This document shows positions 10,331 to 61,395 of a stretch of 64,000 nt of DNA, in pieces. The notes under the pieces were generated by a model that saw nothing but the letters and a program-made list of their open reading frames with translations, did not search any database and was not told the DNA's origin. Positions within the stretch are counted from its first letter, which is position 1. Each line of letters begins with the position of its first letter. This DNA is from Candidatus Zixiibacteriota bacterium (GTDB taxonomy: Bacteria > Zixibacteria > MSB-5A5 > GN15 > FEB-12), in NCBI GenBank assembly GCA_029860345.1, contig JAOUBJ010000006.1, positions 1 through 64,000 of the forward strand, read 5' to 3'. Made by a program: the position numbers and the translations under genes.

Positions 10331-10504
10331 AAACCTCGTCCTTCGACTGCGCTCAGGACGACACGGTCAAGCCGGCACAAATCACTGGAAAGGAACTGAC
10401 ATAGAGAGGCGGCGCGCGAAGCGCGAAAAACAGGCTTGCCTGTGGTTCGACTCCGCTCACCATGAGGTGGAAAACGCACGTAGCGCGAAAAAGTGATTTA
10501 TCAC
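10331..10504. repeat. Repeat mosaic between convergent rarA and SGNH gene
   Basis: Contains a TCCTTCGACTGCGCTCAGGA-type repeat and a double hairpin with stem ACAGGCTTGCCTGT. A CGACTCCGCTCA repeat follows, then a second double hairpin whose stem-loop GTGATTTATCAC (10493-10504) overlaps the stop codon of the SGNH gene. Read on the minus strand, both double hairpins are stem-loops followed by T-runs. Confidence 0.7.
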
Positions 10505-11268
10505 TCCCCCCCCAACACCTCACGCAAAACCGGACGGGCAGCATCGGAAACGATCTGGTAACCCTTGTCGTTCAAGTGCACCGGGTCAACCGAACAGTCG
10601 CGCGGCAATAATCCGTTTTCATCGCCGATTGCGGCTGCGAAGTCAATAATCGGGTAGTGGTTCGACTCGGCAAAGGCACGCACCCAGTCGTTGAACTTTG
10701 AGAGACTGTCGGCCACAGAAAAATCGCCGATCCGCGCCTCTGGTTTGCCCGACGGAATTATCGTCGACACAATCGGCACGATGTCATTCGAGTGGGCCAA
10801 CTGCGCCAACATGGTCATGCCATCTTCGAGAACCTTGTTGGGCATCTGCGGCCGGACGTTGATCGAACAAAACTTGATTATCACAGCCTTGGGGTCAAGC
10901 TCCAGCACGTCTCGCTTGTAGCGCGCCAGGATTCCGGGCACCAACTGTCCGCCGACACCCCTATTGACAAGCGGAAACTCAGGTAAAAACTTCTCGAAGT
11001 CCCAACGTTGGGTAATCGAGGCACCCAGAAAAACGATGCGCGACGAATCAGCTTCACCTCGTTCGATCTTCGCCAGGAGTTCAGCGTTTTCCTGAGCATA
11101 AGCGACCCTCGGAGCCGACTGTTTGGTCGTACCGGTCAGTTTGCGTTTGATATCTCCCAGCGGCGAGCCGCCGTACTTGACATAATTGAAAAAGGCCCAA
11201 ATCGCTACAATGTTCAAAAGCAGCGAACCGGCCAGCACCAGTATCCAGAAGTATCGCATGACATCCAT
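10501..11268 (-). CDS. Membrane-anchored SGNH/GDSL-family hydrolase
   Basis: A 255-residue esterase-type protein with an N-terminal membrane anchor (about 6-28) and an extracytoplasmic or membrane-facing SGNH domain. Block I is FLGASITQRW with the nucleophile Ser84 (GAS instead of GDS). Block V is VDPVHLNDKGY with the catalytic Asp228 and His231. The Gly block is probably NRGVGGQ. The Asn of block III is not clear. It is the last gene of the nadE-asnB-ACP-acyltransferase cassette, 26 bases after the acyltransferase, which suggests removal or transfer of an acyl group on the cassette's product. AGAAGGA abuts the ATG, and a start three codons later (ATG of MRYF) is possible. Confidence 0.85.
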   Translation of the reverse strand: MDVMRYFWILVLAGSLLLNIVAIWAFFNYVKYGGSPLGDIKRKLTGTTKQSAPRVAYAQENAELLAKIERGEADSSRIVFLGASITQRWDFEKFLPEFPLVNRGVGGQLVPGILARYKRDVLELDPKAVIIKFCSINVRPQMPNKVLEDGMTMLAQLAHSNDIVPIVSTIIPSGKPEARIGDFSVADSLSKFNDWVRAFAESNHYPIIDFAAAIGDENGLLPRDCSVDPVHLNDKGYQIVSDAARPVLREVLGGE

Positions 11269-11294
11269 TCCTTCTATTTGATTCTTTTCACTGC

Positions 11295-11879
11295 CTAAAG
11301 ATTTACTTTCCGGGCCGGGTTGCCCATGAATGTGCAGTTATCCGGCGCATCTTTGTAAAGCACGGCACCGGCCGCGACAGTACAGTTTTCCCCCACGTTG
11401 GCCATTACGATTGCTTCCTGCCCAATCCAACTATTGGCGCCGATTGTGATCAGATCGTACTGTTCGGTGGCGGTTTGATCAGAAGTTCGTTCATCCGGTC
11501 GCCCGTGCTGATATTTGCCGCTGATAACCGAGACGCGTGCGCCAAAAAGCACGTTGGGCCCAATATCGGCACAGCCAATAATCGTGTAGACGCCCAGAAC
11601 CACACCCGAGGCCACGCTGACGTCACGGTGTGACAACATACTGCCCAGCATGAAACTGGCATCGGGAGACACATTGCGACAGGTGGCCAGGTAGAAACCG
11701 AGCCTGAAGTATTGGCCGACTATCGTTGGAAAAAGCGACAAAATCTCTTTGCAGGCGCCGTACACGCGCTCGTATCGCCGACCCATAATGGCTGCCTCCA
11801 GCCAGGTGAGCAGGATAAGCGGTAACGTGCAAACGACACCACACACCAAAAGGAATCTTTTGACAACCAATCTGATCAT
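11295..11879 (-). CDS. Hexapeptide-repeat acyltransferase with N-terminal membrane segment
   Basis: A 194-residue left-handed beta-helix acyltransferase. A hydrophobic segment (about 7-27) precedes hexapeptide-like turns: VASGVVLGVYTIIG, IGPNVLFGARVSVIS, ITIGANSWIGQEAIVMANVGENCTVAAGAVL. The C-terminal GNPARKV is typical of serine/sugar O-acetyltransferases. His in SHRDVS and KYQHGRP are candidate catalytic residues. AGAAGG precedes the ATG. The donor could be acetyl-CoA or the acyl carrier protein encoded just upstream. It is separated from that ACP by a 193-base gap but shares strand and cassette. Confidence 0.85.
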   Translation of the reverse strand: MIRLVVKRFLLVCGVVCTLPLILLTWLEAAIMGRRYERVYGACKEILSLFPTIVGQYFRLGFYLATCRNVSPDASFMLGSMLSHRDVSVASGVVLGVYTIIGCADIGPNVLFGARVSVISGKYQHGRPDERTSDQTATEQYDLITIGANSWIGQEAIVMANVGENCTVAAGAVLYKDAPDNCTFMGNPARKVNL

Positions 11880-12072
11880 AAACCTTCTATCGGCTTACCA
11901 CACCTGTACAGTAATGCTACCGCCACCCGTATATGAAGGCAACTACAAAAAGGGAAAGTTGAGGGGCTTGTTTTGGTTGGCCGGAAACGAACAGAGAATA
12001 TGCGGCCTTCTCTGACATTTCGGCAAGACTCAAGTTGAGGTTTTCGTGTCTGCGTGGGACACAAGGGAAGTA

Positions 12073-12321
12073 TCAGGAACCGTTCTTTCGCTGGACGAAC
12101 TTAACCAGGTTGTCGATGGAATCCAGGTTGTCCGGTACCAGATCGTCATCGTCGACCGTGAACTGATAGGTTTCTTCAAGGAATCCGACCAGTTCGAGCA
12201 CGCCGGTAGAATCAATAATGCCAAGCTCCAGAAGTGATCCGGAGTCCGACAATTCGGAGGCATCCTGTCCCATCATGAAGTTTTCTACAACGAACTCTTT
12301 CAGTTGTGTTCGAGCGTCCAA
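12073..12321 (-). CDS. Acyl carrier protein
   Basis: An 82-residue carrier protein. The phosphopantetheine attachment motif is GIIDSTGVLEL with Ser38 (DST rather than the DSL of fatty-acid ACPs). The helix III region is acidic, DDDDLVPDNLDSIDNLVKFV. It starts with TTG, supported by a strong CAGGAGG seven bases upstream. The divergent DST motif, and its place between asnB and an acyltransferase rather than in a fab cluster, mark it as a dedicated carrier for a special pathway. It probably holds an acyl or aminoacyl intermediate on which neighbouring enzymes act. Confidence 0.92.
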   Translation of the reverse strand: MDARTQLKEFVVENFMMGQDASELSDSGSLLELGIIDSTGVLELVGFLEETYQFTVDDDDLVPDNLDSIDNLVKFVQRKNGS

Positions 12322-12406
12322 TCGAACCTCCTGGTCATGAACTTAGTACGTCGGCCAGAGCCCGGTCTCTTAAAGTTATCGACAAAACCTATTTACAGTA
12401 AAGCCC

Positions 12407-14440
12407 TTAACGAGGCAAGTGTCTTTCCCCGGGATTTTGCCGACCGGAGTCGGCTACACCGCTGCGATAGTCATATCGGACGGAAAACTCGTTTTGCTCA
12501 AGGGCTGTAGGCTTTTCCGACTGATCGATAAACTGCTGCACCAACAACTGGGTCGAAAGTATGCCAATGAACGACATGTTGTCCTTAAACGACAAATGAG
12601 CGTGCGAAAGTCGAGCGCACTTCGTTCTCAGTTTGGCCACGGCCTCCGGCTTGAACAAGCCGGTCCGGGCAAGACACTCTTCCGAAAGCATCTCTTCGAC
12701 ATAGGCCGGTGGATCCTCGCAGAAGAAACTATTGGAGTCTGGCGCCATGTATGGTTGTTTGACGCGCTCCACTATCCTTGGCGGCAGTTCTTTCTTCATG
12801 GCTCGTTTCAAGATCGCTTTCTCGTTCAAACCGCGAATCTTCAGCCAGGGAGGAATCCGCGATCCCAGTTCGACCACCCGGTGATCCAGAAACGGGTAAC
12901 GTCCCTCAACAGAATTGGCCGCCGACACGCGGTCTCCCTGAGACGACAAAAGGTAGCCCGAAAGCAACGATTTCGCCTCCAGGAATTGAGCCCGCAGTAG
13001 GTGATGCCAATCCTGAAACTGGTCGGGCAGGTCCCGGCCGAAGGCTTCGAGCGAGTCATGATCGCCGATTCGCTGCTTAGCCTCATCGGTGAAGTAATCC
13101 TTCAGTTTGACCGTGGTGTTGATGCGCGGCTGGTGCGAGAACAGCCAGGCATCGGACTCCGACAGACCGGCCTTGTAGAAAGTTTCAAGGTAAAACCGAG
13201 CCCGCCCCGGCGACAACGGCAGGGTCGGATAGAGCTTTCGCAGCAAAAGCGGACGCCATTCCGAATCAGGCTGACGTGACCAGAACTTGCGCACGAGTGT
13301 CTCTTTGAACAGATCATAGCCACCGAATATTTCATCCGCCCCTTCACCGGTGAGAACCACTTTGAAATTGTTGCCACGGACCAACTCAGACAGCATGTAC
13401 AACGGAGTCGGGGCCGTTCTGAGTATCGGACGCTCGGCATGACGGATTACGTGCGGGAAGTTCGTGGCAATGTCTTGATAGGTGCAGGAAACCTGGTGGT
13501 GATTGGTACCCAGATAGTCAGCCATTTCCCGCTGGTAGCCTGATTCGTCGTAAGCTTTGTCCTGAAAAGCTATCGAGAATGTCTCCACCCGGTTATCGGT
13601 GAACTGCCGGATAAGCGCTGTTGTCGCCGATGAATCCAAGCCACCGGAAAGGTAGGCGCCGACCGGTACATCAGCTCGCAAACGCAGGCGAACGGCATCG
13701 ACCAGTAGTTCGTGCAACTCCTCCGCCCATGAATCCGACGACCGGGAGCGGTCGAATTCAGTTGGGAAACTCATATCCCACCAGCGTCCGCTCTCAATCT
13801 GTTCTTCTTTGATTTGGAGAAAACTTCCGGCCGGAAGCTCGCTGATCCTTTCAAAGGCTGTCCGAGGCGGCGTCGTTGTCCACCAGGTGAAAATCTCGTC
13901 CAGCCCCTTGTAATCCAGACAAGGCTGGATCGACGGATCACAGAATATCCCTTTTATTTCTGAGGCGAAAACAAAACGGCCATCATGCACGGTATAGAAA
14001 ACCGGGCGAATCCCCAAACGGTCGCGGGCCACAAAGAGCGACCTTTTGTTTCGATCATAAATCGCAAAAGCGAACTGTCCGTTGAATCTGTCCAGACAAT
14101 CGCGCCCCCATTGCTCCCAGGCGTGGACAATTACTTCAGTGTCCGACTGGGTCCGGAAGTGATGCCCGGCCGTCTTTAGTTCTTCTCGCAACTCGATATA
14201 GTTATAGACCTCCCCGTTGTATACGATCCACAGCGATCCGTCCTCGTTGCAAAGCGGCTGGGAGCCGGAAGTAAGATCGATTATCGATAACCGTGCATGA
14301 CCCAGGACGCAATTGTCGTCAAGATAGACACCGAATTCGTCCGGGCCACGGTGTCGCATGATGTTCACCATGCGACCGATCAGTTGTTCGTCGGGTAAAG
14401 TATTAGAATTCAGTTTGAAGTATCCGGCAATCCCACACAT
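12407..14440 (-). CDS. asnB: Asparagine synthase (glutamine-hydrolysing) family amidotransferase
   Basis: A 677-residue two-domain enzyme. The N-terminal class II glutaminase starts MCGIAGYF with the nucleophile Cys2 and contains RHRGPDE, VYNGEVYNY and SDTEVIV. The C-terminal synthetase domain has the PP-loop SGGLDSSATTAL (near 266), GEGADEIFGGYDLF, and EGRYPFLDHRVVEL. AsnB relatives in polysaccharide and natural-product clusters amidate other carboxylates, so the substrate here need not be aspartate. It is second in the cassette, 60 bases after the nadE-like gene. No clear ribosome binding site precedes the ATG. The length is somewhat above housekeeping AsnB (about 550-620), as in exopolysaccharide-cluster homologues. 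Confidence 0.92.
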   Translation of the reverse strand: MCGIAGYFKLNSNTLPDEQLIGRMVNIMRHRGPDEFGVYLDDNCVLGHARLSIIDLTSGSQPLCNEDGSLWIVYNGEVYNYIELREELKTAGHHFRTQSDTEVIVHAWEQWGRDCLDRFNGQFAFAIYDRNKRSLFVARDRLGIRPVFYTVHDGRFVFASEIKGIFCDPSIQPCLDYKGLDEIFTWWTTTPPRTAFERISELPAGSFLQIKEEQIESGRWWDMSFPTEFDRSRSSDSWAEELHELLVDAVRLRLRADVPVGAYLSGGLDSSATTALIRQFTDNRVETFSIAFQDKAYDESGYQREMADYLGTNHHQVSCTYQDIATNFPHVIRHAERPILRTAPTPLYMLSELVRGNNFKVVLTGEGADEIFGGYDLFKETLVRKFWSRQPDSEWRPLLLRKLYPTLPLSPGRARFYLETFYKAGLSESDAWLFSHQPRINTTVKLKDYFTDEAKQRIGDHDSLEAFGRDLPDQFQDWHHLLRAQFLEAKSLLSGYLLSSQGDRVSAANSVEGRYPFLDHRVVELGSRIPPWLKIRGLNEKAILKRAMKKELPPRIVERVKQPYMAPDSNSFFCEDPPAYVEEMLSEECLARTGLFKPEAVAKLRTKCARLSHAHLSFKDNMSFIGILSTQLLVQQFIDQSEKPTALEQNEFSVRYDYRSGVADSGRQNPGERHLPR

Positions 14441-14500
14441 CGCGTTAACCAGACTGGATTACAGATTGGATTGGCTCGACTTTGTCAGTCTGCAATCCAT

Positions 14501-15466
14501 CTAAACGATTTCGAGCGGACTCATCCGCAGATATTCTGTCGCAACAATCTTGCGGTTGATATTGGCGTATGCTTTTTCCACTTGCTCTTCGGTCAAACCG
14601 AGTACCGAAGCAGCCTTGGCCGGCTCGACATCGTTCTCCATGGCGTACCAGAGCATATCCATATTGTAAAAGTCCAGACCGAAAAAGAACTCCTCCTGAG
14701 TAACTTCGGCCGAATAGGTGTCGGTGGTGGGTGTGCGTTCGATGATTTCGCTGGGAACACCGAGAAACTCGGCCAGTTGGTACACCTGGATTTTGTACAG
14801 GTGGGCGATCGGCTTCAGATCGGCCCCGCCGTCGCCGTACTTGACAAAGAAACCCTGCTGGTGTTCATCTTTGTTGCCGGTGCCGACCACCGCCCAATTG
14901 CGCAACTCGGCATGATAGTATAGGGTGGTCATGCGAAGCCGCTGCTTGAGATTTGAAGCAGCTACCACCTGTAGGTAGGCTTTCAACGGCATGCGTTTGG
15001 TGAGGGCCTCGCCCGTATCGGTCTCGGCGGCGAGATTGAAGAAATTGAATGTGTTTTTGTCGAGGATGTTCCCGGGGTTGACAATCTTGGTTTTCCAGGA
15101 ATCGTTGAAGTCCGGAAAGACGGACTTGATTGCTTCATCACGACGTTCGTAGCAACCCAGACCGGCCAGACCCTGCGAGATGTTCTCCATGACTGTTTCG
15201 AATCCGAACTTTGTAGCCAGGATTCCGGCCAGGTCGGCGCTTTCCGATGCTGAATCGGTTTCCGGCATCATGATCCCGACCACTTTCTTGGGGCCTAAAG
15301 CCCGGGCGCACAGAGCTGCCACCACCGATGAATCTATCCCACCGGAAATACCGATCACAGCGCCTGATTTTTTCAGCTTTCCGCGTATCTGTTCGAGGAT
15401 GGTCGTGCACATTTCATCGACGACCGCCTTGGCGTCAATCTTCAAACTATCCTTGTTGAACTCCAC
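14501..15466 (-). CDS. nadE: NAD synthase-like ammonia-dependent ATP-pyrophosphatase
   Basis: A 321-residue NadE-family protein. It shows the PP-loop ISGGIDSSVVAAL (near 40-50), RLRMTTLYY, VGTGNKDE and KYGDGGADLKPI, which in NadE bind ATP and the adenylated intermediate. Differences from housekeeping NadE stand out: NKDEHQQGFF in place of NKSE...GY, TPTTDTYSAEVTQEE in place of the ADL...QTDE motif, and an extra DKNTFNFFNLAAETDTGEAL loop. Together with asnB and an ACP this suggests amidation of another substrate, though NAD synthesis cannot be excluded. The ATG at 15541 lies upstream of the promoter. The GTG at 15466 with AGGAAAG before it is the likely start. Confidence 0.85.
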   Translation of the reverse strand: MEFNKDSLKIDAKAVVDEMCTTILEQIRGKLKKSGAVIGISGGIDSSVVAALCARALGPKKVVGIMMPETDSASESADLAGILATKFGFETVMENISQGLAGLGCYERRDEAIKSVFPDFNDSWKTKIVNPGNILDKNTFNFFNLAAETDTGEALTKRMPLKAYLQVVAASNLKQRLRMTTLYYHAELRNWAVVGTGNKDEHQQGFFVKYGDGGADLKPIAHLYKIQVYQLAEFLGVPSEIIERTPTTDTYSAEVTQEEFFFGLDFYNMDMLWYAMENDVEPAKAASVLGLTEEQVEKAYANINRKIVATEYLRMSPLEIV

Positions 15467-15511
15467 TTGCTTTCCTGCCTGCTGTTCGGTTAAGGCCTCC
15501 TGGCTGCCCAG

Positions 15512-15540
15512 TATATTACCACTACCGATGGCCCTTGGCA
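15512..15540 (-). promoter_or_regulatory. Promoter of the nadE-asnB-ACP cassette
   Basis: Minus-strand -35 box TTGCCA (15535-15540), 17-base spacer, -10 box TAATAT (15512-15517). The transcript would start near 15505, leaving a leader of about 40 nt before the GTG at 15466 and ruling out the upstream ATG. Confidence 0.5.
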
Positions 15541-15689
15541 ACCCGATATTTACGACTTCGCGACGCGGCTTTCACTCGGCCGACCGAGCCGTTCCTTCAG
15601 TTTATCGGCGACATCAGGACCGGCTTAAGCCCCATGGTCTTTCAGAGTTCGACGTGTATCGGGCCACTGATAAGGCCCATTGCAAGCCT

Positions 15690-16544
15690 CTACCGACGGG
15701 GGCCATCACCCAGCGGCCAGAAGGTGTAGCTGAGTCGCACTGCCCCCTGTCCGTTGTCAGCGTCGATTTTCAGCACTTTGATCATCGCCCAATGACCCTC
15801 GGACGTCAACATCCGAATGGAGTCACCCTCCCGGACCTCCACGCGGTTGGCGGCCTGCTTGGGAGCCAGGCCACTTCGAAAGTCTTCTGTTTCCCAATCC
15901 AACTCAGGGTTCGACGCCGGCCAGAACAGGTTGTGTCGCAGAAAACTGTCCAGGCGTGAAGGAGAGGCAATGAAGTGCGCGCCGTCTTTGGAATAGTAAT
16001 AAAGATCATTATCGATATTGTCGGCCCTTACATGCACACCCTGGGCCAACGAAAAACCGTCCAGGGCTCCTGAGTATCGCCGAACAAGTTCGAACTCTCC
16101 TTGCGGACCACACAAACCGCCAATCGGCTCGGATGGTGACGACAACGTCCGATCCGCAAAGACAACGCGCACGGCTACCTGGTACAACACACCGTTGTTA
16201 AGATTGGTAGCCTCATAGTAGATTATCCCGTCGTCCGGGTCGGTGTCACCGGGATAAACGACATCGTTGTGCGGTTCAAACGGCAACGCAGAAGTGTCCG
16301 CGAATCGTTCAATTGAAGTCGGACTGATGTAGATGTTGTAGCCGCTGATCAGACGATCACAATCGGTTTTCCACCCGATTTTCATGCTGCCGTCATTGGT
16401 TTCTACCATGGTACTATAGGGTTGACAGATCGCGGCTCGTTCATGAGCCGGTTTGGGTGGACCGCATCCGGCTGCGATGATCGCCACGCCGATAGCTACG
16501 AGGCTGATTCTGTGGGCGGCAGACGCCCTCGTCTGCCCCGGCAT
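15690..16544 (-). CDS. Hypothetical lipoprotein with fibronectin-III-like segment
   Basis: A 284-residue predicted lipoprotein. The signal peptide has a basic n-region, a hydrophobic stretch (SLVAIGVAIIA) and the lipobox AAGC, so Cys27 would be lipidated. Residues ~45-135 read like a fibronectin-III fold: GSMKIGWKTD, ISGYNIYIS, NGVLYQVAVRVV. The second half, with the YYYSKDGAHFIA and LTSEGHWAMIKV stretches, I do not recognise. The ATG used here and the start of the signal peptide lie inside a dispersed repeat (16513-16584) that continues upstream. No good ribosome binding site is seen. It follows the M24 peptidase by 71 bases on the same strand. Confidence 0.7.
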   Translation of the reverse strand: MPGQTRASAAHRISLVAIGVAIIAAGCGPPKPAHERAAICQPYSTMVETNDGSMKIGWKTDCDRLISGYNIYISPTSIERFADTSALPFEPHNDVVYPGDTDPDDGIIYYEATNLNNGVLYQVAVRVVFADRTLSSPSEPIGGLCGPQGEFELVRRYSGALDGFSLAQGVHVRADNIDNDLYYYSKDGAHFIASPSRLDSFLRHNLFWPASNPELDWETEDFRSGLAPKQAANRVEVREGDSIRMLTSEGHWAMIKVLKIDADNGQGAVRLSYTFWPLGDGPRR

Positions 16545-16584
16545 CCAGGTGGCGCACGAGGACGTACACCACGCACAACACCGT
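16513..16584. repeat. Dispersed repeat overlapping a lipoprotein gene start
   Basis: Two modules. A GTGGGCGGCAGAC...GTCTGCCCC hairpin (16513-16540) recurs almost exactly at 49802. A CACGAGGACGTACACCAC module recurs in reverse at 32130-32155. The first codons of the downstream lipoprotein are read from this repeat. Confidence 0.75.
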
Positions 16585-16615
16585 GGAAAGGCTGCTATAA
16601 AAACGGCTAGAAACT

Positions 16616-17785
16616 TCAAACTACGATCAACTCGAGTTGCCGGGGGCATAGAAACCTTGCTCCGCCATCCACTATCAGCACATCCTCTTCCAGACCGACA
16701 CAACCGATTCCCGGCAGGTTGATTTCAAGTTCAAGTGTAAAAACGTTGCCTGCTTCCAGCTTCATTTCCGCTGTCTTGCCATAACGCTCCCACTTAGGTC
16801 CGATTATCGCGCCGCCATCGTGAACGGCGCGGCCCAGCTGATGTCCCAGCGCATGTTGGTACTCGGCATAGCCGTTATCCAGGAGCATTTCGCGGGCAAT
16901 GGCGTCGATCTCGAAACCACGGGCACCCGGTTGAGCGCGGCCGGCCGTCTCGGTGATGATGTCACGCACCTGTTCGAACGCCTCGCTCAGATGTTCTGGC
17001 GGTCCAGCTTCATTGGGGCGACGAAAGTACACCAGTCGTTGCAGGTCTGAGCAGTAGCCTTCGATCCGAGCGCCGAAATCGACGTGCAAAAGATCACCCG
17101 GCTCCAGTTTGGCATCGGTCGGCAAACCATGTCCCGGCGATGTTTTGTCGCCGGCGTTGACTATAGTGCCAAAGGAATTAGCTGAACCTAAGCGATCAAT
17201 CTCAGCATCGATGACGGCGCCGATTTCCTTTTCGGTCATGGCGGTGCCGAATTCCGGAACCACGTTTTTGAATGCTTGATCGGCCAACACGGCAGCCCGG
17301 GCCACCAGGTCGACTTCGCTATCGAGTTTTCTCGCGCGGAGCTTTGTGCAAACATCGGAAGCCGACACCAGCCGGTCGGCGAAGTCGGTCCCGTCCAGGT
17401 AGCCCAGTATAGTAAGATACATGCCGTGCGTCAGACCGTCGGCAGCCGGATTGTCCGGAGAGTAATTGAGCGCAATCCGCGACGGGTTTAGTCGTTCGAT
17501 GGTTTTGCGAAAGTCATCGCGCACACCTTCGGTGTAGGCTGTTACTTCGGTAAACCAACCGCAACGTCTGTAATCCTCCACATCCAGATTGCCCACCAAG
17601 GCGATAGCATCACCCTCGCGCGTGTAAAAGAAAAACGACTGCCAGGTTGCCTGATGTCCAACCACCAGCGACAAAAGTGGGTCGGCCATGATCGATGTTT
17701 CGCGTACGGCCATCAGCCACAGGTCTATCTCCAGTTCCCCAAGAAGCCGATGGGCTTGTTGGATCTTCTGCCGGGTCAAACTCAT
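16616..17785 (-). CDS. M24 family aminopeptidase (Xaa-Pro type)
   Basis: A 389-residue metallopeptidase of the creatinase/aminopeptidase P clan: an N-terminal creatinase-like domain (about 1-140) and a C-terminal pita-bread domain. The five metal ligands are visible: two Asp in HVDFGARIEGYCSDLQR, His in HALGHQLGRAVHD, and two Glu in ELEINLPG and GLEEDVLIV. It probably removes N-terminal residues next to proline from cytoplasmic peptides. Extra codons up to 17953 translate a REP element (AGSKTDPP) and are not real. The ATG at 17785 begins 7 bases after a -10 box, predicting a leaderless mRNA. Confidence 0.9.
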   Translation of the reverse strand: MSLTRQKIQQAHRLLGELEIDLWLMAVRETSIMADPLLSLVVGHQATWQSFFFYTREGDAIALVGNLDVEDYRRCGWFTEVTAYTEGVRDDFRKTIERLNPSRIALNYSPDNPAADGLTHGMYLTILGYLDGTDFADRLVSASDVCTKLRARKLDSEVDLVARAAVLADQAFKNVVPEFGTAMTEKEIGAVIDAEIDRLGSANSFGTIVNAGDKTSPGHGLPTDAKLEPGDLLHVDFGARIEGYCSDLQRLVYFRRPNEAGPPEHLSEAFEQVRDIITETAGRAQPGARGFEIDAIAREMLLDNGYAEYQHALGHQLGRAVHDGGAIIGPKWERYGKTAEMKLEAGNVFTLELEINLPGIGCVGLEEDVLIVDGGARFLCPRQLELIVV

Positions 17786-24585: not shown

Positions 24586-25650
24586 GTGGAAACGATGTTT
24601 GAAGAAATGGCCCGAACCCCGGCCGCCTGGTTGTCCGGGAAAGGCAGAGAGTCGCTGGTGGTTCTCTCAAGCCGTGTCCGTCTGGCCCGTAATGTCGCCG
24701 GGTGTCAGTTTCCCGGGTCGGCCGACAGCGCCACGCGTGATAGGATCGTAAATTACTTCGACTCCACGCGAGCTCGTTCCAAATTGTTGTCGGAGGGACT
24801 ATACTACAAGGCGACCGACCTGAGCAAACTGGATCAGGATTTCCTGGTCGAGCGTCACCTGATATCTCCCGGCTTTCTTAATGGCGAAAGTTCCAAAGCG
24901 CTGTACATCGATCCCCAGGAACGGTTGTCGGTCATGGTCAACGAAGAGGATCATCTGAGAATCCAGGCGCTTTCTCCCGGTCTCGACCCTGAAGGCGCCT
25001 ACAAATTGGCTACGACCTACGATGCTGAGATTTCCGGCCACCTGGAGTATGCCTACGATCCCGATTTCGGGTATCTCACCGCCTGCCCCACCAACGTCGG
25101 CACCGGCATGCGCGCTTCGGTTTTGATACACCTGCCGGGTCTGGTGTTGACACGCGAAATAGACAAAGTCATCTCGCATATCACCCGAAGCGGCCTGGTT
25201 GTGCGCGGTTTCTACGGCGAAGGCAGCGATGTGCTGGGGAATCTTTTTCAACTTTCCAACCAGACAACGCTCGGTGTCTCCGAAGATGAAACCTTAAGGC
25301 AGATCAACCGAGTGGCCGACGAGATTATCGAGAATGAAGCCGGCGCTCGTCAGCGACTGGTCAACGAGGCGGCCGATATGATCGAAGACAAAATCTGGCG
25401 AGCCTATGGGATACTCAAACACGCCCGCGTGCTGACATCCGAAGAGGTCATGAACCTCCTGTCGGCGGTGCGTCTGGGGCACGCCATGAAAATCATCGAT
25501 TTTCTGGACGTTGCTCTTGTGAATGAAATCCTGCTCTTGTCGCAACCGTCGCACCTGCAAAAATACTACGGTCGTGAGATGGATGCTACCCGTCGTGACT
25601 TCGTGCGGGCCCAGATGGTGCGTGAGAAATTGCGGAAGTTCGAGAACTGA
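24586..25650 (+). CDS. mcsB: Protein arginine kinase McsB
   Basis: A 354-residue phosphagen-kinase-fold enzyme that phosphorylates arginines on proteins and so marks them for ClpC. Key motifs are intact: VLSSRVRLARN, the catalytic NEEDHLRI, LTACPTNVGTGMRASV, and the C-terminal phospho-arginine-binding region with RRDFVRAQMVREKL. The start codon is GTG. The presence of the phospho-arginine site separates it from creatine or arginine kinases. It is followed by clpC after 74 bases, as in Firmicutes, but here in a bacterium with Lol genes. Confidence 0.95.
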   Translation: METMFEEMARTPAAWLSGKGRESLVVLSSRVRLARNVAGCQFPGSADSATRDRIVNYFDSTRARSKLLSEGLYYKATDLSKLDQDFLVERHLISPGFLNGESSKALYIDPQERLSVMVNEEDHLRIQALSPGLDPEGAYKLATTYDAEISGHLEYAYDPDFGYLTACPTNVGTGMRASVLIHLPGLVLTREIDKVISHITRSGLVVRGFYGEGSDVLGNLFQLSNQTTLGVSEDETLRQINRVADEIIENEAGARQRLVNEAADMIEDKIWRAYGILKHARVLTSEEVMNLLSAVRLGHAMKIIDFLDVALVNEILLLSQPSHLQKYYGREMDATRRDFVRAQMVREKLRKFEN

Positions 25651-25724
25651 TGGACTCAGAAAATGTTGACTTATGGATTTGCAGAAAAGTTTTTCGTTGA
25701 ACATACAGAGGAAGGATACAACGC

Positions 25725-28193
25725 ATGAATGAGATGTTCACAGAGCAAGCGCGCAAGGCGATTGAATTCGCTCGCGACGAAGCAGCCCGCTTGCGACATG
25801 ATTATATTGGAACCGAGCATCTCCTGCTGGGGCTTATACGCCTGGGTGAAGGGACAGCCACGGAAATCATCGCCAACCTCGGCCTGGAACTGAGCGACCT
25901 GAAAGCCTCGATTGAGGATGTGGTTCAGCCGGCCGGTGGCACCATGACAATGGGCCAGCTTCCTCTAACAGCACGGGCCAAAAAGACGCTGGAAGTTTCC
26001 GGCCAGGAAGCGCGGGCGCTGAAGTCCAAGGATATCGACACCGAACACATTCTGCTGGCCCTCCTTAAGGACGAGGAAGGGGTGGCCGCCCAAGTGCTTT
26101 CCACCTATGAGATCGACTACAAAGAAGCCTACGAAGAACTCAAGAATGTCCAGAACGGCAAGCCTTCGTCGTTCAAGAAGAAGCGTAAGAAATCGAAAAC
26201 TCCCGCCCTGGATCATTTCGGCCGTGACCTCACCGAACTGGCCCGCCGCGGCAAACTGGATCCTATTATCGGTCGCCATGAGGAGATCGAACGAGTGGCG
26301 CAGGTACTCTCCCGCCGCAAGAAGAACAACCCGGTGCTGATTGGTGAACCGGGCGTCGGCAAGACAGCCATTGTAGAGGGGCTGGCCCAGCGCATCGTGG
26401 AGAACCGTGTCCCGCAAATTCTTGAAAACAAACGAGTGGTAACTCTGGATATGGCCTCATTGGTCGCGGGAACCAAGTACCGTGGTCAGTTTGAAGAGCG
26501 TCTCAAAGCGGTCATGACCGAGATTATCAACGCCAACGATGTTATCATTTTTATCGATGAGCTGCATACAATCGTCGGCGCCGGTGGCGCCGAAGGATCG
26601 CTGGATGCCTCGAACATTTTCAAGCCGTCATTGTCGCGAGGCGAACTCCGCTGTATCGGCGCCACGACCCTGAACGAGTATCGCAAGTATATCGAGAAGG
26701 ACGGCGCACTGGAACGCCGTTTCCAAACGGTGATGGTTGAGCCGCCGAGCGAAGAAGATACTATCAAGATTCTCTCAGGCCTCCGTCATAAGTATGAAGA
26801 GCATCATCAATTGACCATTTCCGATGAAGCCATTGAGGCGGCGGTCAAGCTGTCGAACCGCTATGTGTCCGGCAAATTCCAACCGGACAAGGCTATCGAC
26901 CTGATCGATGAAGCCGGTTCGCGTTCGCATCTGTCAAGCTACACACGACCACCGGAATTCTCAGAGACCGAAAATGAGATTGTCGAACTGCAACAGAAGA
27001 AAGAGCAGTCGGTCAAGAACCAGGCCTTTGAAACCGCCGCCCAACTACGCGACGAGATCAAGGCCAAAAAGGACAAGCTCGATCAGATGCAGAAAGACTG
27101 GGAAGCCGCCCGCGAAGAACAGAAAATCATTCTTACCGATGATGAGGTGGCAACAGTGCTGGCCAAGATGACCGGCATCCCGCTGTTCCGCCTGGAGGAA
27201 AGCGAGTCTAAACGACTACTTAGAATGGAAGAAGAACTTGGCAAGACCATCATCGGACAGGCCGATGCGCTAGCCACTATTGCCAAGGCGATCCGCCGTG
27301 CCCGCGCGGGGCTGGCCGATCCGCGGCGACCCATTGGCGCCTTCATGTTCCTGGGACCTACCGGTGTAGGCAAAACCGAACTGGCCCGATCACTGGCGCA
27401 GTTCTTGTTCGATGATGTCGACTCGCTGATTCGTATCGACATGTCTGAGTACATGGAGAAGTTTGCCGTGTCGCGTTTGATCGGTGCTCCTCCCGGCTAT
27501 GTCGGCTACGAAGAAGGCGGCCAGTTGACCGAGAAGGTCCGTCGCAAACCGTACTCGGTCGTGCTCCTGGACGAAATCGAAAAGGCCCATCCCGATGTTT
27601 TCAATATTCTCCTGCAGTTGTTCGACGATGGATCGCTGACCGACTCGTTCGGTCGCAAGGTCGATTTCAAAAACACCGTGGTCATCATGACCTCGAACGT
27701 GGGTACCCGGCAGCTTCGTGACGGCAAGACGGTCGGGTTTGATGCTCAGCAGGTTGACGCAACTCACGAGAACATGGAAAAGAAAATCAAGGAAGAACTG
27801 AAGAAGATGTTCAATCCGGAACTACTCAACCGGATTGATGAAACGCTCATCTTCCACTCGCTCGATCGTGATCATATCAAGGAGATCATTCACATCCTGG
27901 TGGCCGATATTGCCACACGGATGGCTGAAAAAGGAATCAGCTTCCGATTGACGCCCGAGGCTTGCGAATTCCTGGCCGATAAGGGTTTCGATCCGGCCTT
28001 CGGCGCCCGACCTTTGAAGCGGGCGTTGCAGAAGTATCTGGAAGATCCAATGGCCGAGGAGATTCTCAGAGGTCAGTATGCCGGCGACTGTAACCTGATT
28101 GTGGGCGCAACCGAGGAGCAACTCACCTTCACCTTTGACAAGTCGTCATCGTCAAAGAAAGACACGCCGACGGAGATCACCAACTCGAATTGA
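25725..28193 (+). CDS. clpC: ClpC AAA+ unfoldase
   Basis: An 822-residue Hsp100 protein that unfolds substrates for ClpP. The N domain (two repeats, residues 1-145, [12 protein letters not shown]...) binds phospho-arginine in Bacillus. D1 has [13 protein letters not shown] and [14 protein letters not shown]. The middle domain contains a UVR-like motif ([22 protein letters not shown]), the hallmark of ClpC against ClpA/ClpB. D2 has [15 protein letters not shown] and [38 protein letters not shown] precedes the ATG. The gene closes the operon at a strong terminator. No clpP lies in the window. Confidence 0.97.
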
Positions 28194-34507: not shown

Positions 34508-35292
34508 AGGTAGCCCTTTATCCAGTTGAAGACAACGCGGGTGATGAAGAAATTGACGATCAGGATCGTTATTGAGGTCCACACCACCGACCGCGTAGTG
34601 GCTTGACCAACACCCTTGGTGCCACCTTCAGCGGTGAAACCTTTGTAACAAGCCATGAAGGCAATCACCAGTGAGAATACGATCGGCTTCAGAATACCGA
34701 CCAACAGATTGCCGAAAATCAATCGATCCCGCACAGTCGCCCAGTACATGGTGGAAGTGACATGGGCGACAAGGACGGCAATCATCCATCCGCCGAGCAG
34801 GGCAATGGCATCACAAATGATCGTCAGAACGGGCACCATCACTACCAGTGCGATAAGTCTCGGTACGGCCAGCTTCTTCAGGGGATCAATACCGAACGCT
34901 TCCATGGCATCGATCTGGTGGGCCGACTTCATGGCGCCGATCTCGGAAGTGATTCCGGCCGAAACACGCGCCGCAAACATCAGACCGGTCAGAACCGGAC
35001 CGAGTTCACGGATAATACTGATAGCCAGGATACGTCCCAGGTAATTCTTGGCGCCAAAGTCGGCCAGTTCCATCGAAAAGGCAAAAGCAAAACCCTGCCC
35101 CGCAAATATACCGGTGAGCACCACCAGATAGAGCGATCCGACGCCGATCACGTACATCTGCTCCATCGTCTCTGTGACGTACCACCGCCTGGAGAAAAAG
35201 GCTCCGATCATTCGCAGGCTGAAGAAGAAGAGACTCTGCGTCTCGTAGGCGAAGTTACTGAGCCAGTTGTTTATCAGTCGGAAAATGGACAT
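34504..35292 (-). CDS. mlaE: MlaE-family lipid transport permease
   Basis: A 262-residue permease of the MlaE/YrbE family with five or six hydrophobic segments. It has the conserved core GQGFAFAFSMELADFGAKNYLG, EIGAMKSAHQIDAMEAFGIDPLKKLAVPR (coupling region), and ACYKGFTAEGGTKGVGQATTRSVV near the C-terminus. It is the first gene of the mlaE-mlaF-mlaD operon. The ATG at 35292 follows a promoter at a short distance; upstream codons to 35337 lie in that promoter. Confidence 0.92.
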   Translation of the reverse strand: MSIFRLINNWLSNFAYETQSLFFFSLRMIGAFFSRRWYVTETMEQMYVIGVGSLYLVVLTGIFAGQGFAFAFSMELADFGAKNYLGRILAISIIRELGPVLTGLMFAARVSAGITSEIGAMKSAHQIDAMEAFGIDPLKKLAVPRLIALVVMVPVLTIICDAIALLGGWMIAVLVAHVTSTMYWATVRDRLIFGNLLVGILKPIVFSLVIAFMACYKGFTAEGGTKGVGQATTRSVVWTSITILIVNFFITRVVFNWIKGYL

Positions 35293-35313
35293 GTTTTCAA
35301 CACTTTGGCCGTC

Positions 35314-35342
35314 ATTGTACCGGCTATGTTCGGACAAGTCAA
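35314..35342 (-). promoter_or_regulatory. Promoter of mlaE-mlaF-mlaD
   Basis: Minus-strand TTGACT (35337-35342), 17-base spacer, TACAAT (35314-35319). The leader is about 14 nt and has no ribosome binding site. Confidence 0.65.
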
Positions 35343-35473
35343 GGCTAAAAGGGACTATCCTTTTCCTGGAAAATTCCTATATTGAGCCCTCAAAACTGCG
35401 ACCGTCTTACGTTATACATACGCCGGTTACGGCCGTTCAGTATCGTTGGACACGACATTATGTAAGGTTGATT

Positions 35474-36496
35474 TTGAACGATAGATCAAAGAAACGCGGA
35501 CACGCCATCGCCCTGTTTTCAGGCGGATTGGACTCGGCGCTGGCCATTTTATTAATGCTCAACCAAGACATTGAGGTGACCGCTCTGACCTTCATGACCC
35601 ACTTCGGTTGCGATCTGGGCGATCGCTCATCGTGTGGCTCCGATCCTTACCCGGCGGCGGAGAAGTTCGGGTTCAATGTCAAGCTGATGCACCTGGGTGA
35701 GAAGTTTGTCGACATCGTTAAGAACCCGCAATTCGGCCGGGGCAAGAACATGAATCCATGCACCGATTGCCGGGTATTGATGCTCAGCGAAGCGCGCGAG
35801 TTCATGGAGATGTCCGGCGCCGACTTTGTCGTCACCGGTGAAGTCATGGGCCAACGACCTATGTCGCAGGTCAAGGACAAACTGTTCCTCACCATCAAAC
35901 ACTCGGGGCTCAAGGGAAAACTGCTGAGACCGCTCTCGGCCAAACTGCTTCCGCCGACCGACGCCGAGCTGAGCGGCATGGTTGATCGGGAACAGCTCGA
36001 AGGAATCAGCGGACGGAGTCGCAAGAGACAGATGGAGCTGGCCCAGCAGTTTGGTCTTGATGACTACCCCTCACCTGCATCCGGCTGTCTGCTTACAGAC
36101 GCCGCTTATTCGGGACGGCTGCGTGACTTGTTGGGGCACTCGGAGCGGATTACTTTCGACGACCTCAATCTGCTGCGAGCCGGGCGTCACTTTCGGTTGA
36201 GTCCCAGCCTGAAGATCATAGTCGGTCGCCACGAAAGTGACAACCGGGCGATCGCTTCCTGCGCCAGACCCGAACACATTCGGCTGGAAGCGGAGGAGAT
36301 CGGTTCACCTGTCACATTACTAATCGGCGAGGCAAGTGAAGAGTCAATCGAAAAGGCGGCCGCAATTACAGCCCGCTACAGCTCCGCGCGCCACGAACCA
36401 CAGGTCGAAGTTACCGTGACTTCCGAGCAGGGCCGGCATCGTGTCAAGGTGCAACCGGCCACCGCCGAACAGCTGGGAGCGGCGCCGGTGGGCTGA
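35474..36496 (+). CDS. PP-loop ATPase of the tRNA-thiolation (ThiI/MnmA-like) type
   Basis: A 340-residue protein with an N-terminal ATP-pyrophosphatase domain. The PP-loop is LFSGGLDSALAI near residues 17-28, with the conserved NPCTDCRVLML and VVTGEVMGQRPMSQ motifs of the ThiI-like thiouridine synthase group. The C-terminal part (GRHFRLSPSLKIIVGRHESDN) resembles the NFACT-R-type RNA-binding domain found in this subgroup. There is no THUMP domain, so it is not canonical ThiI, and it lacks MnmA's full architecture. The catalytic Cys is probably in CTDC. The start is uncertain: TTG at 35474 has AAGG six bases upstream; earlier codons overlap the mlaE promoter. Confidence 0.75.
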   Translation: MNDRSKKRGHAIALFSGGLDSALAILLMLNQDIEVTALTFMTHFGCDLGDRSSCGSDPYPAAEKFGFNVKLMHLGEKFVDIVKNPQFGRGKNMNPCTDCRVLMLSEAREFMEMSGADFVVTGEVMGQRPMSQVKDKLFLTIKHSGLKGKLLRPLSAKLLPPTDAELSGMVDREQLEGISGRSRKRQMELAQQFGLDDYPSPASGCLLTDAAYSGRLRDLLGHSERITFDDLNLLRAGRHFRLSPSLKIIVGRHESDNRAIASCARPEHIRLEAEEIGSPVTLLIGEASEESIEKAAAITARYSSARHEPQVEVTVTSEQGRHRVKVQPATAEQLGAAPVG

Positions 36497-57939: not shown

Positions 57940-60900
57940 CTATGGACAAGCCGCGGGCGCCGGTCCGCCGGTGAACATGTAATCTACCAAGTACACCAGA
58001 TCGACAATGTCGATATCCGTCAAGCTCTCGCTGGGAGGAGTGGCGCAGCAAGAACCGTCGACATTGGCTTCTTTCACACAGAGCGGCGGATCGCCCTCGG
58101 AGAACATGAAGTCCACCAATGTGACCAGGTCGCTGATGTCGATGTTGCCCCGAGTATCTCCGCCTGCATTTCCTCGCATGCCCTCGCAGCAGCTTCTCAC
58201 CTGCCCCACGGTCAGTTCATAGATCTGGTTGTATCCTTGCGGGTAGACCGAAGTCGTGTCGGTATCCAGCATGTACTGAATTCGAACGACACCGGTGGGG
58301 TCGACGGCCAGATCGCCCGGGTAGGTGTCGATCGTGTCACTGGTAAGAGTCACTGGAGCTATCCAGCCAAGAGCCAGGTTATCGAAGTTGAGTTGGGTGA
58401 ATCTGATTTCTCCATCGTACAGCACACCGTCATCGCGCTCGAAACCTACGAACGCCATCAGCACCTGGTTGCCAAGCATTGTTAACTTAGGCGTTGTTCC
58501 ATACCCGGTACTATCGACTACACCAATCGTATCAACGGACCAGCCGGAGGTCGTTCCGACCGAGGCTGCGATTCGCGTGTTGTCGCCAAAGACGACCGAA
58601 TCGACTATGGCGCCAACGCTGTCGTACTGGTATCCCCAGAATTCGTAAGCCACCACCACCGATTGATCGACGGGGCTTAAAGCAATACTTGGATTGAGCG
58701 GACCGCGAGCGGTGAGAAAGGCGTAGTTACTTCCCGACGGGATACCGGAGCTGCTGATGGAGGTCACCAGAAGTTCGCGAGTGCTGGGGCTGCTCACACC
58801 GTCCTGAGGTGCGGGGTCGTGCACCCAGACGATAACCGCCTCACCTGACCAGTCATAAAAATCCACCGTGGGTTGGGCATTGTAGCCGTCCTGATTGGGC
58901 AATTCCCCCATTGTCCATCCGGCGCCATTGTTGTAGGCATAGGCGATACGCTGATTGGTCGGATCGTAGGAGGTGCCTGTGTTGTAGCTCCAGACGGCGC
59001 AGAGACGGCCGTTCGAACTCGCGATGGCAGGCGCGGCGTCGGCATACCCGTCCGACGTTAGCCGCTCCGGCGGCTGCCATCCGGTGACATGGTTGTATCT
59101 GGCGGTGAATATCTCGTGTTCCCTGGCGATGTTATATAGACTGTCCAGAAGAACGCTGTCAGGTGCAATTGGATTCACGTTTTCCGCCCAGACAGCAACG
59201 AAAGAACTGTCGCCGTGGGCGGTAACGTCGGGGTGGACCTTCGGTCGGCCGGAGGATGTTAACGCCACCGGCGTGCTCCAGGACGAGCCGGGGTCAAGTT
59301 CGGAAAAGTAGATTTCCTGATCTTCGAAACCTTCTGTGCGCACGAAGACGGCCATTGTCTTCAAGGCATTCGAGGCCAGCGCCGGTGGTCCGTAATAGTT
59401 GTCGTCCTCGACGTTGGTGAGTGATAGGCCGGCAGTAGCGCCGGTGAGGAAATCATCGATGTATAGCTTCCCCCCGGGGCAACTGTCCATCAAAGTAAGA
59501 TGCCCGCTGTACTTTTTGGTTTTCCAGAGAAACTTCAGGGTGGCTTTCCAATCCAGCTTGAATATTCTGCAGAGTTCAGTATTGATCTCCAGCGTGTCGG
59601 GACCGCGTGAAATACCCGTAGCAATATCATACCGGAAGTCACTCGTGATATCGACCTTTGCCGAGGCAAGCCCGGCGAGTATCTTTATCTCCCCAAACGC
59701 CTTGGCCGCAATTTCCAGTTCGGACACAAAGTCCAATCTACCCCAGAAGGGTTCGGGCGGTGCGTACAACGTACCATCCACCGTCCACGATCCATCGGTG
59801 TGCTTGATGGTGCCACCGACGGTAACACTCAAAATGTCTCCCCCAACCGTGAACTGCACCCACACACCCTCGAAAAGTTTGAGAGGGCTGGTCGTCAACC
59901 CGACCACGGGCGAGGCAAAGTTGAAAACTCGGGGATCCTCCTCCTCCCACACCGACACGCCAGCGTCTGTGGATAGTACAGAGGCGCCAAACAGGATGAA
60001 ACGAATAGTATCATCCAAGGTGATGTCCTGCGAACCGTCCAAATTGAAGTCCTGATAGATGTAAACGTCGTAGGACAACCTGTTTTCCATGAGGCGCTGG
60101 AACAGCGTGAAAGTGTCTCGGTACAGGTAAGGCGCCGACCACTGCGGTACGATTGAATTGATATCGTAGAACTCACCCAGGGTGTCGAAGGATGCGTCGG
60201 AATGGGCGAACCAGGCATCGGCCAAAGGTTTGTCTTCAGTGGCGAAAAGCCTCTCGCAGGTGACTATATCACCGAGATTTGCCTGATACAAATGCTCCCC
60301 CTCGGGGAGCTTCCACATCAAAGTGTCTTCGTATGTAAGCTCGTGATTTATCAAATCTATGTCACCTACCTCGAATTGATAACCCGATTCCTCGTCATCG
60401 TACAGAATGGTGATCGGTGTCTGCGGCGGTAGCACATGCACAAACGGTTGGAACCTGACGTAGACGGAATCCGGACGCTCGATATTAGTGGCGAAGTGAA
60501 CCGTGTCAGGACTATCGGCATCGTACTGGAAATAGATGGTGTCACAGAAGCTACCCCCCACTTGAAGCGCAAAACAATAGGGCCCGCCCCACTTTGGATT
60601 CGTGCTGCCCCCTCCCCCCAGATTCCAATGCCAATTACCACTCGGCGGAAACCAGCAGGAATCGATACAGTACGTGGCGCCGGTGTCGGCACAGTCCAGC
60701 TCGGTAGTGATGGTCCATAGGTAGCCCACAAAATCCGGCGGCAAACCCGGCCCCAAATCGCCGTACCCAGCCTCCAGACCGATGGTGTCTGCGCCGCTGC
60801 CGTCCAAGCTCCCCAGATAAGGAAAGACATCCGGCCCGAAGTACGTTAAAAGCAATTCCGGGTTGAGACCCAGGGTGGGAACTGCCCAGGTAGCGCCCTC

Positions 60901-61239
60901 CGGCGAGTAGAGTCGAAAGCCGAGGTCGAACTCCGAGATGTTTTCGTCGGTACGGTTGTACAACCAGATGGTAAAGTTGAACGGTTGACCGCACAAAATG
61001 GTGCTCCCGATGCCGGCGCCGTCTCCAGTAAGCGTGATGGTCAAATCCTTTGGAATGAGGGGGGCGATATCCGGTGTTGTGTAGACTTCTCTATTCGTGG
61101 ATACGGTTTCCGGCACCCCACGGGAACTTCGATTGACGGGCGAAGGATCTCCTGAGCCACCGGGGCCAGTGAGAGCCCACGCGGTCAGCGCCAATAGACT
61201 GATAGCGAGCACCGCCGGAATTGTCTTACAGCGTTTCAT
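57940..61239 (-). CDS. Large secreted protein with C-terminal dockerin-like repeats
   Basis: A 1099-residue exported protein with a signal peptide (MKRCKTIPAVLAISLLALTAWA). The body is beta-rich. Residues ~600-950 contain repeated beta-propeller-like stretches (GSSWSTPVALTSSGRPKVHPDV, GWQPPERLTSDGYADAAPAIAS, GWIAPVTLTSDTIDTYPGDLAVD), similar to BNR or sialidase-like repeats. The C-terminus has two dockerin-like units, DTRGNIDISDLVTLVDFMF and DIDIVDLVYLVDYMFTGG, each with the Ca-binding Asp/Asn pattern. This C-terminus is common in Zixibacteria-like genomes and may anchor or sort proteins at the surface. AAAGGAG precedes the ATG. The enzymatic role, if any, is not evident. Confidence 0.82.
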   Translation of the reverse strand: MKRCKTIPAVLAISLLALTAWALTGPGGSGDPSPVNRSSRGVPETVSTNREVYTTPDIAPLIPKDLTITLTGDGAGIGSTILCGQPFNFTIWLYNRTDENISEFDLGFRLYSPEGATWAVPTLGLNPELLLTYFGPDVFPYLGSLDGSGADTIGLEAGYGDLGPGLPPDFVGYLWTITTELDCADTGATYCIDSCWFPPSGNWHWNLGGGGSTNPKWGGPYCFALQVGGSFCDTIYFQYDADSPDTVHFATNIERPDSVYVRFQPFVHVLPPQTPITILYDDEESGYQFEVGDIDLINHELTYEDTLMWKLPEGEHLYQANLGDIVTCERLFATEDKPLADAWFAHSDASFDTLGEFYDINSIVPQWSAPYLYRDTFTLFQRLMENRLSYDVYIYQDFNLDGSQDITLDDTIRFILFGASVLSTDAGVSVWEEEDPRVFNFASPVVGLTTSPLKLFEGVWVQFTVGGDILSVTVGGTIKHTDGSWTVDGTLYAPPEPFWGRLDFVSELEIAAKAFGEIKILAGLASAKVDITSDFRYDIATGISRGPDTLEINTELCRIFKLDWKATLKFLWKTKKYSGHLTLMDSCPGGKLYIDDFLTGATAGLSLTNVEDDNYYGPPALASNALKTMAVFVRTEGFEDQEIYFSELDPGSSWSTPVALTSSGRPKVHPDVTAHGDSSFVAVWAENVNPIAPDSVLLDSLYNIAREHEIFTARYNHVTGWQPPERLTSDGYADAAPAIASSNGRLCAVWSYNTGTSYDPTNQRIAYAYNNGAGWTMGELPNQDGYNAQPTVDFYDWSGEAVIVWVHDPAPQDGVSSPSTRELLVTSISSSGIPSGSNYAFLTARGPLNPSIALSPVDQSVVVAYEFWGYQYDSVGAIVDSVVFGDNTRIAASVGTTSGWSVDTIGVVDSTGYGTTPKLTMLGNQVLMAFVGFERDDGVLYDGEIRFTQLNFDNLALGWIAPVTLTSDTIDTYPGDLAVDPTGVVRIQYMLDTDTTSVYPQGYNQIYELTVGQVRSCCEGMRGNAGGDTRGNIDISDLVTLVDFMFSEGDPPLCVKEANVDGSCCATPPSESLTDIDIVDLVYLVDYMFTGGPAPAACP

Positions 61240-61395
61240 CGTGCGTCTCCTTTCACGATTCGTACTTCCCGTAAACGTCGATTCAAAATGTGAGCGAAAT
61301 ATCACCGGAATCTATAGCAAACAAAGCCGGAGCGCAACGACCATTTTTACCGCCTTTCCTCCCTTCCAGGTTCGAGCATGGGTATATCGCCCCCC

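Follow-up and report, generated by a model that had tools for sequence, protein, structure and literature searches.

A NadE-family protein apparently repurposed within a five-gene cluster of a Zixibacteria genome, probably part of a surface-glycan decoration module with its ligase encoded elsewhere

The stretch of DNA analyzed here (the window) comprises 64,000 nucleotides (nt) of a Candidatus Zixiibacteriota bacterium (GenBank assembly GCA_029860345.1, contig JAOUBJ010000006.1, positions 1 to 64,000), and the study concerns a cluster of five genes which encode a divergent NadE-like protein (NadE2), an AsnB-family amidotransferase, a small acyl carrier protein (ACP), a hexapeptide acyltransferase and an SGNH hydrolase. 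In our reading, to which a probability of about 0.6 is given, the cluster stems from an accessory module for the decoration of a surface glycan of the exopolysaccharide type which was rearranged in this lineage and whose adenosine monophosphate (AMP)-forming ligase is encoded elsewhere in the genome. Genes for surface-glycan decoration are of a known kind; the new element is a NadE-fold enzyme which has apparently been repurposed.

An earlier note, made by a model from the letters alone, had placed the five genes on the minus strand, and profile searches bore out both the place and the families. NadE2 (14501-15466) is a NadE-like ATP-pyrophosphatase of the PRK00876 subfamily, matched by the NCBIfam model NF002048, 'NAD(+) synthase', at 441 bits against a cut-off of 313. 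It is followed by the AsnB-family amidotransferase (12407-14440; TIGR01536, 528 bits), the small dedicated acyl/peptidyl carrier protein with a TTG start (12073-12321; PF00550, 25.7 bits, above cut-off), the left-handed beta-helix (hexapeptide) acyltransferase with a hydrophobic N-terminus (11295-11879; PF00132/PF14602) and the SGNH/GDSL hydrolase with an N-terminal signal anchor (10501-11268; PF13472, Lipase_GDSL_2, 57.9 bits). The gaps measure 60 nt between NadE2 and AsnB, 85 nt between AsnB and ACP, 193 nt between ACP and the hexapeptide gene and 26 nt before the SGNH gene. The open frame of NadE2 (14501-15541) extends to a TTG at 15541, but the start is most likely the GTG at 15466, since the proteins of relatives begin at the equivalent of M(E/D)FNKDSL, which aligns to it. 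The five-gene order is kept only in two relatives of the same genus (L038 and L073), which argues that the cluster is not a chance juxtaposition; elsewhere the block is split or headed by a ligase (G033, G044), so that the conservation put forward in the earlier note as a check holds within the genus and not outside it. The placing of all five genes behind one promoter found no backing. Two promoter-like sites were observed against 2.9 expected from shuffled sequence, a terminator scan gave counts at chance level, and the 193-nt spacer is poorly conserved, with no convincing conserved element.

The ligase is absent from the window, and the earlier note had accordingly proposed a stand-alone pathway; this part did not survive. 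An ortholog is present in the same genome on another contig (G000:C3:44961-46520), 51% identical to the ligase of a relative's cluster (L040; E 8.7e-168), the next best match in the genome reaching E 3e-28. Among 54 genomes of the family, both ligase and NadE2 were found in 35, NadE2 alone in one (G032), the ligase alone in one (G043) and neither in 17, so that 35 of the 36 NadE2 genomes also have the ligase (Fisher p 7e-12, a value which ignores kinship among the genomes). Within the genera g1 (G037), g2, g4, g10, g18 and g28 the two genes are jointly present or absent. In G037, a NadE2 fragment with in-frame stops lies at the usual place of the gene (L234 on contig C86, about 2473-2640) and adjoins conserved M24 peptidase and lipoprotein genes; as this genome also lacks the ligase, a joint loss is suggested. 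The ligase of the window genome (L125:8932-10524) lies near genes which, by their translations as judged by eye, appear to serve 3-deoxy-D-manno-octulosonate (Kdo) and lipopolysaccharide (LPS) biosynthesis: a KDO8P synthase, a phosphatase, an isomerase, a lipid A acyltransferase-like and an LptC-like protein.

The neighbourhoods of NadE2 in relatives connect the same genes. In 80 loci spread over seven or more phyla (Zixibacteria, Ignavibacteria, Calditrichota, Chloroflexi, Acidobacteria, Bacteroidetes, Verrucomicrobia, Aminicenantes), NadE2 clusters with ACP, an AMP-ligase of about 517 amino acids and AsnB. Where at least 5 kb was available on both sides, the ligase was found in 27 of 32 loci, ACP in 26, AsnB in 20 and a NadE2 paralogue in 6. 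In other phyla the neighbours also include glycosyltransferases, sugar epimerases, FemAB proteins, hexapeptide acyltransferases and XrtA-type glycosyltransferases. Within the phylum, NF002048 scored over its cut-off in 71 of the 132 genomes sampled. In the better-assembled relatives the module genes are situated within exopolysaccharide loci or next to them, in agreement with the earlier note, which had mentioned that similar asnB, nadE and ACP genes are known from such loci. G039 has the order AsnB-ACP-(type IX-tailed protein)-x-hexapeptide-SGNH-Wzx flippase-x-Wzy_C. In G018, NadE2-ACP-ligase closely follows a region of about 35 kb with exosortase, SGNH, MBOAT, GNAT, deacetylase, Wzy_C, glycosyltransferase, UDP-GlcNAc 2-epimerase and hexapeptide genes, and in G010 a Wzz protein and a hexapeptide-SGNH pair are divergent from NadE2-ACP-ligase-AsnB. 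The hexapeptide and SGNH homologues form an adjacent pair in about ten genomes of the family; this pair is a unit of its own, and the window's genus is the only one in which it is attached to NadE2. Given these arrangements of hexapeptide-SGNH and AsnB-ACP genes and the exopolysaccharide contexts, the preferred reading of the window cluster is that two units of the exopolysaccharide type, one with NadE2 and the other with AsnB-ACP-hexapeptide-SGNH, have been fused, while the ligase stayed elsewhere.

The divergence of NadE2 was analyzed by aligning 89 NadE2 proteins with 29 canonical NadE proteins from relatives and the B. subtilis enzyme (identical to PDB 1ee1); positions are given in B. subtilis numbering except for the insert, and the roles attached to individual residues are those expected from NadE in general. 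The catalytic residues of the ATP-pyrophosphatase (SGGxDS with Ser46, Gly48, Asp50 and Ser51; Thr157, Glu162, Asp173, Lys186) are kept in 88-89 of the 89 proteins, and Arg137 is also kept. On the acceptor side, Leu211 is replaced by Thr in 89/89, Lys205 by Arg, Ala209 by Thr, Pro or Ser, Asp220-Glu221 mostly by Thr-Gln and Tyr228 by Phe, which upholds the description of NadE2 as a divergent paralogue with a departed substrate loop. The inserted segment noticed earlier was recovered as a conserved insert of about 50 residues (about 131-190 in NadE2 numbering) which is not present in the canonical NadE of relatives and has Tyr131, Arg134, Asp135, Asn166 and Gly177 as near-invariant residues. In a tree, as the earlier note had advised, NadE2 stands apart from the canonical enzymes with a support of 0.91 (0.99 for the canonical NadE of relatives). 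The AlphaFold model (predicted local distance difference test score, pLDDT, 87) has NAD synthetases as nearest folds, with 2e18 as best match. In some operons a second NadE2 paralogue, about 40% identical and forming its own clade, follows the ligase (NadE2-ACP-ligase-NadE2b; L059:12925-13929 and L061:12942-13931). Bordetella WbmE, considered as a NadE-like O-antigen amidase, was dropped as a parallel, as the literature calls it a periplasmic post-assembly modifying enzyme.

As for the other four proteins, AsnB starts with MCGIAG, which gives the N-terminal Cys (Cys2) of a class II glutaminase, followed by the Asn-synthase domain (PF13537, PF13522, PF00733), and its nearest solved structure is 7ylz, named a hydroxyamidotransferase. 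The ACP carries its phosphopantetheine Ser within the DS motif of GIIDSTG. The earlier note had taken it for a dedicated carrier with an atypical DST site; its gene context supports the dedication, and the site is not atypical, being present in 46 of 61 homologous ACPs of related loci. Besides the window ACP, the PP-binding profile points to two further candidate carriers in the genome, a small ACP which probably serves fatty acid synthesis and a domain within a 1959-residue frame. Hexapeptide repeats were found in the acyltransferase, where the largely conserved His of SGKYQHG is a putative catalytic residue, and the SGNH blocks GAS, NRG.G, CSIN and DPVH (Ser, Gly, Asn and Asp-x-x-His) are conserved in 12 homologues.

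A possible chemistry can be outlined from these families. The C3 ligase would activate a carboxylic acid and load it onto the dedicated carrier protein, a carrier-bound carboxylic acid being suggested because ligase and ACP are present together; the A4-type motif of the ligase, LYYIYG, has no counterpart of the Asp that marks ligases with SFDYG, and this speaks against an amino acid as the first substrate, even though the nearest solved ACPs carry amino acids. NadE2 with free ammonia and AsnB with glutamine would adenylate and amidate free carboxylates, the target being either the carrier-bound acyl group or a uronic-acid sugar. The membrane-linked hexapeptide acyltransferase may move an acyl group to the glycan or to its precursor on a lipid carrier, whereas trimming or re-transfer of acyl groups outside the inner membrane could fall to the anchored SGNH protein. 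Amidation and acyl transfer to an envelope acceptor, as the earlier note had it, are still the most economical chemistry once the stand-alone part is given up.

Several observations weigh against this explanation. In G032, a 91% complete genome, NadE2 and AsnB are present, but a ligase was not detected and the contig contains no ACP; G043 carries the ligase and lacks NadE2. The C3 ligase is a candidate partner of the window ACP and no more than that. In the window genome the module lies outside any recognisable polysaccharide locus, next to genes for a peptidase and a lipoprotein and to others which read as RarA and pabB types. Moreover, the NadE2-free G038 combines AsnB-ACP with a hexapeptide gene (AsnB-ACP-x-x-hexapeptide), so the two halves of the cluster may do unrelated jobs.

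An explanation which we regard as possible on a tentative footing is that two independent jobs merely share a location: AsnB and NadE2 would turn uronic acid sugars into uronamides, and N- or O-acylation of that sugar or of a different one would be the task of ligase, ACP and acyltransferase, the ACP-bound acyl group never being amidated. It is in line with WbpS, a characterised enzyme related to this type of AsnB, which makes uronamides (PMC7468200), with AsnB-ACP-hexapeptide occurring without NadE2 in G038 and NadE2-ACP-ligase occurring without AsnB in other loci, and with the ligase motif lacking the Asp of amino-acid adenylation. Against this, NadE2 is found more often beside ACP and the ligase than beside AsnB, and these counts link it with the carrier and not with the sugar amidotransferase.

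A linking sugar for secreted proteins is an unlikely product. Here the module would make the sugar by which type IX cargo, or the substrates of an exosortase, are anchored to a surface glycolipid, as in Porphyromonas Wbp/Vim. Small proteins with type IX sorting tails, assigned by Pfam, lie between ACP/AsnB and hexapeptide-SGNH or adjoin them in L217 and L219, c10 subtilisins with such tails adjoin the genes in other relatives, SGNH paralogues stand directly beside an exosortase in several genomes (L243:3340-5105 in G047; G046:C146, G007:C336, G048:C7, G049:C42), and both AsnB and the ligase have XrtA-type relatives. However, type IX tails occur widely in this phylum, and the profile of the PorU-type sortase matches 54/54 genomes of the family and so shows no correlation with NadE2. 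An exosortase is present in 43 of the 54 and absent from two single-contig genomes that have NadE2 and the ligase (G015, G016), and the module is carried by Chloroflexi and Acidobacteria. No exosortase or glycosyltransferase was found among the window genes scanned; the exosortase of the window genome is located on G000:C32.

That NadE2 is a second NAD (or nicotinamide mononucleotide, NMN) synthetase with unrelated neighbours is very improbable. The NCBIfam annotation, the retained ATP site and pocket residues (Arg137, Asp173, Asp177) and the inclusion of an NMN synthetase (3fiu) in the NadE fold would allow it. The window assembly (4.76 Mb, 99% complete) has a canonical NadE on another contig (G000:C11:127294-128016; E 3.3e-75), the second nadE for which the earlier note had advised a check, and NadE2 is therefore probably not the housekeeping NAD synthetase. 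Nearly all 54 genomes have a canonical NadE with or without NadE2. Further, NadE2 carries other fixed residues at substrate-loop positions which do not vary in NadE, its association with ligase, ACP and AsnB recurs across phyla, and tandem NadE2 paralogues occur within one operon. The gene labelled 'NAD synthase' thus probably does something other than NAD synthesis. To a self-contained five-gene pathway in which an amidated acyl intermediate is assembled on the ACP without any ligase we give almost no credence: the order is kept in the genus, but the genome has a ligase ortholog that tracks NadE2, and the AsnB-ACP-hexapeptide-SGNH block of G033 is headed by another ligase and not by NadE2, which is on another contig. 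This second ligase (L216:8635-9975) is TIGR03098-like with the SFDYG motif and takes the place of NadE2 at the head of the block.

Upstream of NadE2 lies a predicted lipoprotein gene (15690-16703, minus strand; cluster c5) without a Pfam match, which occupies this place in several relatives and is retained beside the NadE2 remnant of G037; it is a conserved neighbour and probably not part of the pathway. Elsewhere in the window, a McsB-like guanido-phosphotransferase followed by a ClpC-like ATPase (24586-28193, plus strand) forms a typical arginine-phosphorylation protein quality control pair, a 409-residue protein (35267-36496, plus strand) joins a ThiI-like domain to an NFACT-R_2 RNA-binding domain, and a 1121-residue open reading frame (57940-61305, minus strand) has no Pfam match.

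The family annotated 'NAD(+) synthase' probably does not make NAD and is spread beyond this phylum to at least six others, so correction of the PRK00876 annotation affects metabolic models. The set of ligase, ACP, AsnB and NadE2 provides a concrete and testable hypothesis on the way in which bacterial surface polysaccharides receive amide and acyl groups. A literature search, with subscription journals outside its reach, found no published description of NadE, AsnB, ACP and ligase as a gene set in polysaccharide loci. It may be ventured, with considerable reserve, that NadE2 founds a group of NadE-fold amidases acting on carrier-bound acyl groups and not on a dinucleotide, and that NadE2, ACP, AMP-ligase and AsnB form an undescribed pathway of many phyla for amide-bearing acyl substituents on surface glycans. 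The isolate genomes of Ancylomarina sp. DW003 and Geothrix sp. SG200 have NadE2 matches and may offer alternatives to the uncultured Zixibacteria.

In comparison with known systems, NadE2 shares the fold, the ATP-pyrophosphatase motif and the catalytic residues of canonical NadE (2e18, 1nsy/1ee1, 1xng). Single-domain NadE uses ammonia as nitrogen source, and its mechanism, adenylation followed by amidation, is common to AsnB and GuaA (PMC3376133). NadE2 would similarly be expected to form an acyl-adenylate for attack by ammonia. It differs in the recoded substrate loop, in the conserved insert and in being clustered with ACP, AMP-ligase and AsnB in genomes with a separate canonical NadE; the PRK00876 family name implies NAD synthesis, whereas this context and the active-site changes argue against it. 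The closest solved relatives of the ACP are stand-alone peptidyl and D-alanyl carrier proteins (2my5, DltC-type), which carry amino acids, and the nearest NCBIfam models, ornithine-lipid ACP and AmcB, score below cut-off. The module ligase resembles the XrtA/PEP-CTERM acyl-CoA ligase TIGR03098 (347 bits for the copy of the window genome, 390 bits for the G033 ligase) but stays below the cut-off of 592, and in the window genome it is encoded apart. In Porphyromonas, WbpS of the TIGR03108 family (XrtA amidotransferase) is the AsnB-type enzyme which forms a uronamide in an aminoacylated linking sugar, and its authors pointed out XrtA loci with VimA-like and AsnB-like genes (PMC7468200). The window AsnB resembles it (492 bits), with an intact glutaminase and relatives in polysaccharide loci, but falls under the cut-off of 817 bits and is coupled to NadE2, ACP and the ligase. 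The Porphyromonas Wbp/Vim pathway is alike in AsnB-type uronamide formation and (amino)acyl transfer to a surface sugar, whereas, as described there, it has no NadE-like enzyme, ACP or AMP-ligase (PMC7468200), and VimA is not among the window genes.

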